The position numbers and the translations under genes were made by a program. The notes beneath the pieces were generated by a model, which did not search any database, was not told the origin of the DNA, and saw nothing but the letters and a program-made list of their open reading frames with translations. This document shows, piece after piece, positions 57,211-63,815 of a DNA stretch of 64,000 bases (position 1 is the first letter of the stretch; each line of letters starts with the position of its first letter). Source of the stretch: Utricularia gibba (lineage: Eukaryota; Streptophyta; Magnoliopsida; Lamiales; Lentibulariaceae); assembly GCA_002189035.1 (NCBI GenBank), contig NEEC01000017.1, forward strand, positions 1,054,001 through 1,118,000, given 5' to 3'.

Positions 57211-57649
57211 TCCTTTCGTATCATCCATTTAGCTAATCCAATTTCATCCCATACAGAGATTAACAAAACAACATGAGATTTTGGATTTCGCATTTGTCAG
57301 GGGGGACTCTACATATGAATTCCCACCATTGAAGGCTTGGCATGAATCCCCGGCCACACATCAACGTTAACTTTTTAAAATCACCAAAATCAACCTGATC
57401 ATGTAGGACATATATCTCTTAATATGACATGCCAACACCCAACTTTGATGTTTGGCAGGAGTTCACATCAAAGTTGGTGATACAGTCGGATGACTTCATT
57501 CATCCGATTCTTGATACTTTCTCTCAATCAATTCACCATAAAAAAATTGCATGATGCATGAAGTATTCTGCTCTTGTTGTCGTGTATTCTAATGACAGCA
57601 GAAACTGAGAAAACACACTGAAAATCTCAATCTTCAACTTCTATGCTAC

Positions 57650-59632
57650 TCAGTCCATCCTTTGTCTACAGTCCACCATGCTATATCCTGGCTCCTTTTT
57701 TATGTTTTTCCTCTCCATGACCATTCTAATTTCATCTGCATCACTCCATTTCCCGGCATCCACATACATATTATATAACAAGACATATGGCCCGGAGTTC
57801 TCTGGCTCCAGTAAAATCAATGCTTCAGCTGCTACTTTTGCTAGCTGCAGATTGTTATGCACCCTACAGGCACCCAACAATGCTCCCCATACAGGTTTAT
57901 CCGGTTCGACTGGCATGCTTTTGATGATATCCATGGCCTCATTAACCTTTCCATGTCTGCCAACAACATCTACGAGAGAAGTGAAATGTTCAACTCTTGG
58001 TTTGATCCCGAAATCACATGCCATGGACCTAAAATATGACTTAGCTTCTTCTACCAGACCACCATGAGCACACGCGCTCAGAACGGAGATGAAGGTGATG
58101 TAAGTCGGAGTCACTTTGAACACTTTCATTGATTCAAAAAGCTCCAGAGCCATCTTCGCATGCCCATGGGATGCATACCCTCCTATCATAGCGTTCCAAG
58201 ATATCACATTCTTGTGAAAAGTTGGATCATCAAAAATTCTCTTTGCTTCGGTGATCATCCCACATCTTGCATACATGGTGATTAAAGCATTATTCAGCGT
58301 AACATCTGGAATTACCTTCTTCACTACAAGCTGGTGAATCTGCACTCCCAGATGCTGCTCCGCAGACTGTGCACAAACACTGAGTAACGAAGAAAGGGTG
58401 TGCAGGTCTGGTTTCTCTCCTTGTTCTTGCATACCGAGAAAGAGTTGGATTGCTTCTTTGAAAAACAAATTCCTTTCATATCCAGCTATCATGGTGTTCC
58501 AAGAAATCAGGTTCTTCTGAGGCATCCTTTGGAAGATACTAAGCGCAAGTTCCATCTTTCCAGCCTGTGCATAACCTGAGATTAAGGAATTCCATGATAG
58601 GGAATCCGGACAACGCATTTGAGAGAAGAGCTTTAACGCTGTCTCCAAATCAGAGGCATGAACATAACCAGTAATCATCGTGTTCCAAGAAAAAGCATCT
58701 CGGCTCTTCATTTGATCAAAGAGATCCGCAGCAGATGGCATATTCCCATCATTTACATAAGCCATTAGCATTGAATTCCATGAGACAATGTTCTTCCCCG
58801 AATCGGGTATTGAATCAAAAATGCACCTTGCATCAGCTACCCTTCCTTTCCTGCCATAACCAGCAATTAAAGTATTGATGGCATGAACCAAATCCTCTTT
58901 CCTGCACGTTTCACTATATTCAAACAGGATCTTTTTAGCTTCATCCATTTCATCATTTTGAATCAAGCCAGACACAAGTGCATTGATAGAACCCGAATCC
59001 CGTATGGGCATTCTCTTGAACCATTCACAAGCTTTTTTCACATCACTGTTACTCAAAAACCCTGTGATGATTGTGTTCCATGTGACAACGTTCCTCTCGG
59101 GCATGCTGTCAAAAATTTTGATAGCATCTTCCATTCTTCCATTTTTCGCATACCCACTGATCATGGTGTTCCAAGTAACAATATCCCTTTCGAGCATATT
59201 TTCGAAGATATTTCTTCCTTCTTCTACATACCCTAAACTACAACAGGTCATGTAACCTTGGATCATGAGATTCCATGAATACATGTCCTTCATAGGCATT
59301 TCGTCAAACAGCTTGCGTGCTTTTAGAATCTCATTTTTCTTCAAGTATCCACTGATCATGGAATTCCATGTTACAGTATTTCTACACGACAAACTGTCGA
59401 AATAAGCTCTAGCATCTTCAATCCGCCCATCTCGTACTAATTCCCTGATCCTTCTATTTGCTGAACGAATCTCCGTAGAGACAGGAAATACATTCGATTT
59501 GACGTTCATTGTTGAAAAAGAGTAACCAATATGACACCGCGGATTCCTCCACAATCGCCAGGAACCACGTAGCACCGCCATGCTGCAGTGAATAATGAGT
59601 TTTTGAAGCAACCCAAGAGAACAACTTAGCAT
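57650..59632 (-). CDS. Pentatricopeptide repeat protein, PLS class with E-type tail
   Basis: This is an organelle RNA-binding protein of the class that specifies C-to-U editing. The single exon has 660 codons. After a basic, Ser-rich N-terminus (likely organelle presequence) come about 14 PPR motifs, many of the 31-residue S form, for example VTWNSMISGYLKKNEILKAR, VVTWNTIITGFLSNSDVKKA and LISWNTMIAGYERNLFFKEA. The protein then runs into an E-type region (PDKPVWGALLGACRVHNNLQ, YVLLYNMYVDAGKWSDADEI) and stops soon after EPGYSMVD. No DYW deaminase domain follows, so editing would need a partner in trans. The general layout resembles MEF9-like proteins, with low confidence. A 63-bp piece of this gene (58083-58145) is duplicated in inverted orientation near 59900. 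Confidence 0.92.
   Translation of the reverse strand: MLSCSLGLLQKLIIHCSMAVLRGSWRLWRNPRCHIGYSFSTMNVKSNVFPVSTEIRSANRRIRELVRDGRIEDARAYFDSLSCRNTVTWNSMISGYLKKNEILKARKLFDEMPMKDMYSWNLMIQGYMTCCSLGYVEEGRNIFENMLERDIVTWNTMISGYAKNGRMEDAIKIFDSMPERNVVTWNTIITGFLSNSDVKKACEWFKRMPIRDSGSINALVSGLIQNDEMDEAKKILFEYSETCRKEDLVHAINTLIAGYGRKGRVADARCIFDSIPDSGKNIVSWNSMLMAYVNDGNMPSAADLFDQMKSRDAFSWNTMITGYVHASDLETALKLFSQMRCPDSLSWNSLISGYAQAGKMELALSIFQRMPQKNLISWNTMIAGYERNLFFKEAIQLFLGMQEQGEKPDLHTLSSLLSVCAQSAEQHLGVQIHQLVVKKVIPDVTLNNALITMYARCGMITEAKRIFDDPTFHKNVISWNAMIGGYASHGHAKMALELFESMKVFKVTPTYITFISVLSACAHGGLVEEAKSYFRSMACDFGIKPRVEHFTSLVDVVGRHGKVNEAMDIIKSMPVEPDKPVWGALLGACRVHNNLQLAKVAAEALILLEPENSGPYVLLYNMYVDAGKWSDADEIRMVMERKNIKKEPGYSMVDCRQRMD
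58083..58145 (-). repeat. 63-bp inverted duplicate, source copy inside PPR gene
   Basis: The minus-strand sequence from 58145 down to 58083 is identical over 63 bp to the plus strand at 59900-59962. Here it encodes part of a PPR motif, ELFESMKVFKVTPTYITFIS. The two copies are in opposite orientation, 1.75 kb apart. Confidence 0.93.
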
Positions 59633-60019
59633 ACAGATGAATGGAAGGAAATTGGGGAGAAAAGGGAAGGCGAGCGTGATTATACCATATCAAAGCCCAT
59701 GCCGCCTCCTAGTACATTCGGAGGGTTGAAACTCTACAAAATACACCATCAAAATCAGTACCCCAAAACCAATGAAGGAAATTAGCGAAGGGGCGGTCGA
59801 ACTCTCTCTGATTCTCCGACCACCGGAGCCTCATACATCGACATCGGTTTGTGCGCAGTTTGATTTACAAAAATAATCTTAATTGATTCGATTTTGTGCG
59901 GAGCTTTTTGAATCAATGAAAGTGTTCAAAGTGACTCCGACTTACATCACCTTCATCTCCGTATTTCCTCGCGCTATTTCTAACGCATCTTCTATTTGGT
60001 GTTGCAGATACCATACTGG
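59633..60019. promoter_or_regulatory. Divergent promoter region of the two PPR genes
   Basis: A 387-bp interval lies between the two divergent PPR start codons. Its right half contains the 63-bp duplicated PPR segment (59900-59962) and an acceptor-like GTTGCAG at 60001-60007. No clear TATA box is identified. Shared transcriptional control is plausible but only inferred from spacing. Confidence 0.5.
59900..59962 (+). repeat. 63-bp inverted duplicate, intergenic copy
   Basis: This is an exact copy, in opposite orientation, of 58083-58145 from the neighbouring PPR gene. It contains the ATG at 59916, so it opens an upstream ORF of 46 codons (59916-60056) whose first 16 residues, MKVFKVTPTYITFISV, are the same as in the source PPR protein. 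Confidence 0.93.
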
Positions 60020-61765
60020 ATGTCTGCTTGCAAGAGCCTTTGCGCGATTGTGGTGAAAGGTCACTGGGATAAGATATTGAAAACCAGAATTGGTGATGCT
60101 TCGCTATCATTAGCTGTTGTAAGCGAAGCTTTAGAGCATCTCTCGGCATCCCATTTTGCTCTTTCTTGGGCATTCTTCAAATGGGTTGAGACGCTTCCAC
60201 ATTACAAGATTCCGTTGCAATGGAATTGGCTCATGGTTTGTGTACTAACAAAACAGGGGCATTTCAATGATGCTCGAGTTTTGCTCCATAAGATTGCTCA
60301 CAGGGAATTTTTATCTTCCCCATCTGTACTAAAAGCTCTTACTGATGGTCATGGGAATCCTGATATTTATTCGAATGTTTTGAGTTGGTTGGTGATATTC
60401 TATGCTAAAGCAAAGATGAATCCAGATGCACTTCAAGTATTTGAGCATATGAGAGTGTGTGGATATAAGCCTCATTTGCCTGCTTGCACGGTGTTGTTGA
60501 ATTCTCTGATCAAAGAGGGGTTGACGGATACTGTGTGGAAGTGTTTCAAAAAAATGGTGAAGTTGGGAGTTATCCCTAACTTGTATGTTTATAATGTGCT
60601 GATTCATGCTAGTTGCAAGTCAGAAGATGTTGAGAGAGCTGAGGCTTTGATGAGCGAATTGGACCTGAGGAACATATCTCCAGACATTTTCACTTACAAT
60701 ACATTGATTTCCTTGTACTGTAAAAAGGGTATGCATTATGAAGCTTTATGTGTTCAAGATCGAATGGAGCGGCGAGGTATGGCTCCGGATATTGTGACAT
60801 ATAACGCGCTTATCTATAGTTACTCTAGAGTAGGTAGAATGAGAGAAGCTATGAGGCTTTTCAAGGAAATCAAAGGTACTTCTCCTAATCATGTGACTTT
60901 CACCACACTAATTGATGGATATTGCAGAGCCGGAGATCTTAATGAAGCTTTGAATTTGCGGGATATGATGGAAGCAAAGCAGTTGTACCCGGGGGTAGTT
61001 ACTTATAATGCCATTCTCCGTAAATTATGTGAAGAGGGTCGGATGCAGGAAGCAAACAAGCTTCTAAATGACATGAGTGGTAAAAAGATAGAGCCTGATG
61101 TCATTACGTGTAACACGTTGATAAATGCTTATTGCAAGATTGGAGACATGAGATCTGGTTTGAAAGTTAAGAGTAAGATGCTGGATGCTGGGTTAAAGCC
61201 TGACCAATACAGTTACAAGGCCTTGATCCATGGATTTTGCAAGAAAATGGATATAAATGGTGCAAAAGAGATGTTGTTCGAAATGCTCAATGCTGGTTTT
61301 TCCACTAGCTATTGCACGTATGCATGGTTTGTTGATTTCTACTGCACCCGAAATGATGAGAATGCTATCTTCAATTTTCTTGATGAGATAACCGAAAAGG
61401 GCTTTTGTGTTGACATCAGTGCTTACCGTGCGATCATTCGAAGACTTGGTAAGAAAGAACGAACTGATGTTGCGGAAAGAATTTTTAGAGATATGCAAAG
61501 GAAAGGCATGGTGGGAGATGCTGTTGTTTACACAACTCTTGCTCATGCATTTTGGAGAAATGGTAATACTCATAAAGTTACATTACTTCTGGATGAAATG
61601 TATGAGAGAAGATTGATGGTGACTCTGAAAATCTTCAGAAATATGAGTGCTTCATATGTGGATGATGGCATCCAAATGGAGAAATTTTGGGACAACATGT
61701 TGGAAAGGGGCCTCATTTCTAAAGCAACACAAAAAAGAATCCTGGAACTGAAGTATGAAGTCTAG
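60020..61765 (+). CDS. Pentatricopeptide repeat protein, P class
   Basis: This is an organelle RNA-binding protein, probably involved in RNA stability, splicing or translation; it resembles Arabidopsis At5g38730, with moderate confidence. The single exon has 581 codons. After about 60 N-terminal residues and a divergent region, about 11-12 tandem 35-residue P motifs are visible, such as PNLYVYNVLIHASCKSEDVE, PDIFTYNTLISLYCKKGMHY, PDIVTYNALIYSYSRVGRMR and PDVITCNTLINAYCKIGDMR. No E, DYW or SMR domain is present. The start is the ATG at 60020; the frame is open to a stop at about 59976 without another ATG. An overlapping upstream ORF (59916-60056) in another frame may dampen translation. Confidence 0.92.
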   Translation: MSACKSLCAIVVKGHWDKILKTRIGDASLSLAVVSEALEHLSASHFALSWAFFKWVETLPHYKIPLQWNWLMVCVLTKQGHFNDARVLLHKIAHREFLSSPSVLKALTDGHGNPDIYSNVLSWLVIFYAKAKMNPDALQVFEHMRVCGYKPHLPACTVLLNSLIKEGLTDTVWKCFKKMVKLGVIPNLYVYNVLIHASCKSEDVERAEALMSELDLRNISPDIFTYNTLISLYCKKGMHYEALCVQDRMERRGMAPDIVTYNALIYSYSRVGRMREAMRLFKEIKGTSPNHVTFTTLIDGYCRAGDLNEALNLRDMMEAKQLYPGVVTYNAILRKLCEEGRMQEANKLLNDMSGKKIEPDVITCNTLINAYCKIGDMRSGLKVKSKMLDAGLKPDQYSYKALIHGFCKKMDINGAKEMLFEMLNAGFSTSYCTYAWFVDFYCTRNDENAIFNFLDEITEKGFCVDISAYRAIIRRLGKKERTDVAERIFRDMQRKGMVGDAVVYTTLAHAFWRNGNTHKVTLLLDEMYERRLMVTLKIFRNMSASYVDDGIQMEKFWDNMLERGLISKATQKRILELKYEV

Positions 61766-63815
61766 GCATAATAGCATCAGTTTTAAAACAGTATGACTTC
61801 AGACCCTGTGTTTTGTATCTGCTTCGACTACCTTCCCATCGATTACCGAGGCTGGCAATAGGGAAACAATGTCACCTAGTGGCTTCTGATTCATCTGAAG
61901 GCTCTGATTATCATGGCCAGAACCTTCCTTTCAGCACCAAAATTTTCACATATTGAAAGTTAAACCTTTCAATACCCAGAAAATGGACAAGTTTGACAAG
62001 ACAAAGTCAAGATCCAGGTTCATTTCCAAAAACAATCTATATGATATGAATGCATGTTCGTGCATGCTTAAGGATGTGTGTAGTTTGATGTCTTCCTACC
62101 TTTGTAGGAAAAAGGAAGCCAGATGGTGGAGAAGGTAACCAATACTGGGCAATCTGCTTAAGAATCAGTGCAACAGGTAAGCCTCCTAAGTCAGCTCATA
62201 AACCAACATGAGCACCATGATCACTACAAAAAATCTTGAATGATTTCCCCACTGGGACGTCATCTTTTTTAGTTTTAAATATTGTGGTGTTCTTAAGGGC
62301 TGCGGACCAGGTGTAGGCTAAGGCGCATGGCGCTGTGGATTCAATTGGGATTAACAAATGAGGAGCTCTTCACCCACGCTGTAGTTGTTTCTTCGGAGAC
62401 TTGATTCTTATCAAATGAATTCCAATGTTCCTTGGTTGTTTCCACATCTGTACTTGGATGATCACTCTTGAACAAAATCTTGGGACTTATGGCATAAAGG
62501 CAAAAGCTAAGTTTGTAGATTCTTGTGGGGCTAAAATGGAATTGAGGTTTATTTATTGTGGTGAAAATGAATTTATGTAAAGTTGTGGAACCAATCGCGA
62601 TCTTTAAACAAAGATAGAAAGAAAAAGATTCAACCCCCTCAGATTGTCGTGATAATAGAAGACTGGACTTTGGAAGACCTTTTGGATCTTATTGTGCATT
62701 GCTTAGACTTCAACGTCAAAAATGAATTAAGGAATACAAATTTGATAGGTTTTATTTATGTTGACTGAAAATGAATAAGAAAAATATTACAAATTGGGTA
62801 ATCCAATTTTTTTAAAGATATTTCTAATTACTCTTTTGATCAACTATCATTGGTATTCAAGTGATTTATTATAAAAGTAGATACTCTTTTACGAAGCATG
62901 AACAATCAAATAAAATACAATCGAATGCATAAAATTAGAAACATCCCTAATCTTACGTAAGACGAGGATGATCATCCAAAACCAAGTATTTACTGAATAA
63001 ACTTTCTTCATCAATATATTAATTAAATAATCCAACAACTTAACAGTTGAATGATTATTTTCAAATCGATTCCGCATTGAAAAATCTTGTATTTCATGTT
63101 TTATTCAATGTTCATTTCCCCACATAGAATCGAACACAAAGGTCAACGACATCGATGCGAATCAAAATGGGTCGGATCAAGTCATACCCGAAAACCCAAG
63201 AAAAACCACAGAAAACAAAATGAATAAATTAAAAATGGAAGTCACACCTCAAATGTCGACAACGCACCGCAGATGAGATGGGATGAAGGGGTCCCGCAGC
63301 TCGAACCCATTGAGTTCATCTCGTACGAGGTTGTTGCCTTGTCATGTCACAGCCACAGGTTGGGTGATGGGCATTTATCTTGTAAGAACAAAGTGTTGGG
63401 GAATAATAGGGTATGCTAATTTGGCTCTGCCTCTCTCTTTTCAATATTCCCCATATTTTTCACGTGCGCTTTTGCAGAAGTTGGTTGCCATGTGAATTGG
63501 ATTCAACCAAGTTTTAATTACAAAGTGAAGTAGGATGCCCTAAACTTCTCCCCACATGTGTGCATTACAAGGAGAGCTGTGATTGAGTACAGTAGGGTGT
63601 ACACTGGTTGCGATGCCCCACCCACTGCATTAAATGTCCCCCCACGCAGACTCCAAAGTCCAAAGCAAGCTCCCTCTGATGGCATCATCATCATCAGTAT
63701 CACTGTGGAGTGCTCTAAAAGTAGAGCTTTCCCTTCTTTTTTAGGGTTTTCAGGAGGGGTTGCAGTTTTAGCCAAGGAGGAGGCTAAATCTGTGCACGAC
63801 AGCAAGTCATCCAAC
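61766..63815. other. Spacer and MADS promoter region, no gene seen
   Basis: This contains the PPR 3' UTR, AT-rich sequence from about 62560 to 63110, then a mixed region from 63120 leading to the MADS ATG. Small open frames on both strands show no domain. Confidence 0.4.

Follow-up and report, generated by a model that had tools for sequence, protein, structure and literature searches.

Plant end joining mediated by Pol theta (TEBICHI) can leave filler DNA, a short exact copy of nearby sequence, reverse-complement copies included. In Arabidopsis, insertions at repaired CRISPR-induced breaks reach 60 bp in length, and some are the reverse complement of a template close by; most insertions are <10 bp, and the templates often lie within 100 bp (PMC5217109). 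Moreover, templated insertions can derive from separate donor molecules (PMC10923293). Pol theta insertions are typically 3-10 nt, and one described route to inverted templated insertions is snap-back synthesis, a reaction that the helicase domain of Pol theta is said to suppress (PMC9962433). Short-range template-switch mutations also copy nearby sequence in inverted orientation and are widespread in great ape genomes (PMC7954356). In the Lentibulariaceae, break-heavy, deletion-biased repair has been proposed to have shrunk genomes (PMC11688529).

Here we describe what is probably a natural case of inverted templated insertion, clear in form, from a plant with a compact genome: a 63-bp block lying between two divergent PPR genes in a 64-kb window (the whole stretch of DNA analysed). 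The block is real, probably young and looks ordinary in kind, a scar of DNA-break repair rather than a regulatory device. It resembles filler DNA in being a short exact copy of nearby sequence, and its 63 bp compare with the 60 bp reached by filler insertions in Arabidopsis. However, insertions in the Arabidopsis experiment are mostly much shorter and more locally templated, whereas this block is found 1.75 kb from its source; it is also natural and present in a reference assembly, in contrast to filler insertions obtained by experiment, and a Pol theta pathway is here putative. Similarly, it shares inverted copying with short-range template switches but differs from those of PMC7954356 in its kilobase-scale distance and in having no ancestral allele for comparison. 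One such scar is insufficient to test the idea of genome shrinkage by repair (PMC11688529).

The two arms, 58083-58145 on the minus strand and 59900-59962 on the plus strand, were recovered in a repeat search and are 100% complementary over 63 nt, 1754 bp apart; a script confirmed the exact reverse complement. The number of such pairs to be expected at random in 64 kb is about 3e-28, which excludes chance as the source of the match and bears out the initial annotation, where a perfect 63-bp identity far beyond chance had been claimed. That annotation also took the match for a single exact block and not for similarity among PPR repeats, and it saw a piece of the PLS gene placed inverted in the upstream region of its neighbour. 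Both points hold, the second from the positions of the arms and the first because the other repeats in the PLS gene align at just 63-87%, ruling out PPR-repeat similarity as the origin. A script turned up no other exact inverted repeat with arms of 24 bp or more within the window, where the only direct exact repeat of that length is a 30-bp pair at 18.4 kb. Whole-assembly searches, using as queries 2.7 kb of surrounding DNA and a 25-base pattern with 3 mismatches allowed, returned two copies only of the block in the 100-Mb assembly, and a search of plasmid records gave no match. For comparison, a total of 244 kb from this assembly was screened with a complexity filter applied: the window together with the DNA flanking it, two paralogous regions, and eight 10-kb stretches chosen arbitrarily. 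The next-longest local exact repeats were 30 bp direct, 63 bp apart, and 24 bp inverted, the latter being part of an older duplication.

The minus-strand gene (57650-59632) is an ORF for a 660-aa PLS-class PPR protein with an E motif (PF01535/PF13041/PF20431); it presumably resembles Arabidopsis MEF9 (At1g62260) and is likely a member of the MEF9-like group of mitochondrial editing factors. Its divergent neighbour on the plus strand (60020-61765) is an ORF for a 581-aa P-class PPR protein (PF13041/PF12854), presumably resembling Arabidopsis At5g38730. In the PLS/E-class gene, the source arm codes for residues ~496-517 (ELFESMKVFKVTPTYITFISV); these fall inside the Pfam PPR_3 match at 473-521 and align with the corresponding motif in PDB 9kfx, a synthetic PPR-DYW protein. 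The inverted copy ends 57 bp upstream of the ATG (60020) of the plus-strand PPR ORF. Since the coding arm specifies an in-frame conserved PPR segment, it is the ancestral one, from which the intergenic arm derives; judged from the sequence, the direction of copying is therefore from gene to intergenic region.

We sought an empty site for the insertion in two related regions. A broken PLS PPR copy of 57565-59758 is found at C409:1108659-1109835, with two large internal deletions and with the plus-strand PPR gene absent beside it. Homology to the minus-gene upstream region (59633-59758) ends 141 bp before the 63-bp copy, and both the source and the target regions are missing from this paralogue. 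A syntenic (homeologous) segment on C255 matches the window at 49-52 kb and a stretch at 66-82 kb, past the right end of the window, in reverse order; both PPR genes are absent between these flanking matches. Neither contig has an empty site, and we infer mechanism and age. Zero differences over 63 sites set an upper 95% bound on divergence of ~4.6%, whereas the PLS gene and its C409 copy are 83-84% identical where aligned (16-17% divergence). Thus, unless gene conversion has kept the arms identical, the block is probably young relative to the C409 duplication, in line with the initial annotation, which took the event to be recent. In the upstream region of the PLS gene, a GCCCA motif at 59690-59705, whose minus strand reads TGGGC, similar to site II, is retained in the C409 copy and is a possible shared divergent-promoter element.

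Splice-site scoring, with rough consensus weights drawn from general knowledge, predicts a plus-strand intron at 59847-60007 that contains the copy and would measure 161 nt with the block and 98 nt without it. The donor TCG/GTTTGT at 59847 is the best-scoring donor-like site within 59640-60000, and the 3′ part of the predicted intron has CTAAC at 59980, resembling a branch site, followed by a T-rich acceptor, TTGCAG, whose last base is 60007. Predicted splicing brings an upstream ATG (59772) in frame with the plus-strand PPR ORF, a joining that may be fortuitous. If the intron were retained, the ATG within the block would open a 46-codon ORF (59916-60056, plus strand), overlapping the main ATG out of frame, and lower translation of the plus-strand gene would be expected. 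This overlap would readily explain tolerance of the block at an intronic position. The block thus probably sits in an intron before the neighbour's ORF and is likely absent from the mRNA. It had been assigned to the neighbour's leader; it does lie upstream of the plus-strand ORF, but on the splice-site prediction an intron upstream of the ORF is probably the better term.

We consider it fairly likely that the copy is a templated ("filler") insertion, left when a double-strand break or a stalled fork in the short stretch between the divergent PPR genes underwent error-prone repair. As is characteristic of filler DNA, the insert reproduces nearby sequence exactly, its source is intact, and it has neither a target-site duplication nor element termini. 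Under this proposal, a break would have occurred near 59900 and the left-hand plus-strand 3′ end, at or in ...GTGCGGAG, would have annealed to plus-strand sequence 1.75 kb leftward, in the PLS gene, over a match of a few nucleotides (GGAG with CTCC at 58142-58145). The template may have been the same resected strand folded back, or another molecule such as a sister chromatid. A polymerase, for example Pol theta, would then have copied 63 nt before the new end came free and was ligated to the far side of the break. With the same strand as template, the inverted orientation comes out exactly as seen. The block would have persisted, being near-neutral, on account of its probable position in an intron that is spliced out upstream of the neighbour's ORF. 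It starts with GGAG and ends with CTCCGT, which may or may not include priming microhomology. Against this proposal, a copy of 63 bp taken over a distance of 1.75 kb is at the limit of what Pol theta usually produces or exceeds it, and the suppression of snap-back synthesis ascribed to the Pol theta helicase domain also counts against it; Pol theta is accordingly a candidate enzyme.

A close rival to Pol theta break repair, possible but in our view rather unlikely, is a replication-based template switch (FoSTeS/MMBIR-like), in which a nascent strand left the intergenic template, copied 63 nt of the opposite-polarity strand next door and returned. An inverted copy is the outcome of switching to a complementary template, and the frequency of short-range switches in great apes (PMC7954356) lends this account some plausibility; against it, the 1.75-kb distance may exceed the short-range scale studied in that work. 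The two processes leave the same kind of scar and differ in their trigger, and telling them apart depends on an empty site.

Inverted duplication is a known origin of MIRNA genes, and the locus resembles such cases in having an inverted coding-fragment copy near its source gene. It differs in that a MIRNA-type foldback has both arms in one hairpin transcript, whereas here the arms are 1754 nt apart on divergent genes and no hairpin transcript is expected. From the gene layout, the minus-strand gene is predicted to be transcribed leftward from ~59.63-59.75 kb and the plus-strand gene rightward, with no expected transcript spanning both arms; the hairpin and small-RNA effects suggested in the initial annotation thus find no support. 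The same applies to RNA pairing via the block: in the leader of the plus-strand gene it would be of sense and not antisense polarity relative to the PLS mRNA, and two RNAs that carry the same strand cannot pair there. A functional inverted duplication, in which the block regulates one or both PPR genes through an siRNA hairpin in read-through RNA, a decoy for a small-RNA target or upstream-ORF control, is accordingly very improbable. The 46-codon ORF across the main ATG would permit the last of these, and sense identity to the PLS mRNA would let the block act as a decoy for a small RNA targeting that mRNA. Against these stand the divergent transcripts, each arm lying outside the other's expected transcript, an unremarkable leader fold (z = -1.3), the lack of an Rfam match at the block and predicted splicing that takes the block out. 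On the Rfam search we also dismissed an RNA element at the block. There is a slimmer chance still that a block copied by repair now links both PPR genes, either by decoying a small RNA or by providing an upstream ORF that intron retention switches; if so, a repair scar of one PPR gene would tune the expression of its divergent neighbour. The effect of the block on either gene is probably small, and unproven.

Fold-back read artefacts give palindromes centred on the junction. The block is known from one assembly only, and an assembly or library artefact would mean that it lies at a single site in the real genome; we consider such an error highly unlikely, given that both copies are found in gap-free sequence (no N in the window) inside a 2.6-Mb contig and that a 63-bp internal block with unique flanks is unlike a fold-back palindrome. 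Captured gene fragments are frequent in plants, yet mobile-element capture (Helitron, Pack-MULE) or a retroposed mRNA fragment is the least credible origin, since the fragment is internal to an ORF and no element-borne third copy was found in the assembly. At the 63-bp copy we found no target-site duplication, transposon ends or poly(A) and no terminal repeats beyond 5 bp (CGGAG/CTCCG), which largely rules out a transposon or retrocopy, while the two copies in the assembly rule out a multicopy element.

Lastly, two further features of the region were noted. Between the convergent 3′ ends of a glycosyltransferase-like gene and the PLS PPR gene, the segment 57313-57541 is single-copy and has a 13-bp stem, with an Rfam match well short of the gathering threshold (E 2e-4) and a folding z of -1.8; its stems are probably chance hairpins. 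At the other end of the pair, 61655-62601, comprising the last ~110 bp of the plus-strand PPR ORF and ~840 bp downstream, has a 68%-identical inverted copy ~14 kb rightward, at C328:1129912-1130776, and part of it has a 66% copy at C255:2952243-2952760. From these matches, an inverted duplication of part of the plus-strand PPR gene seems to predate the C328/C255 duplication.
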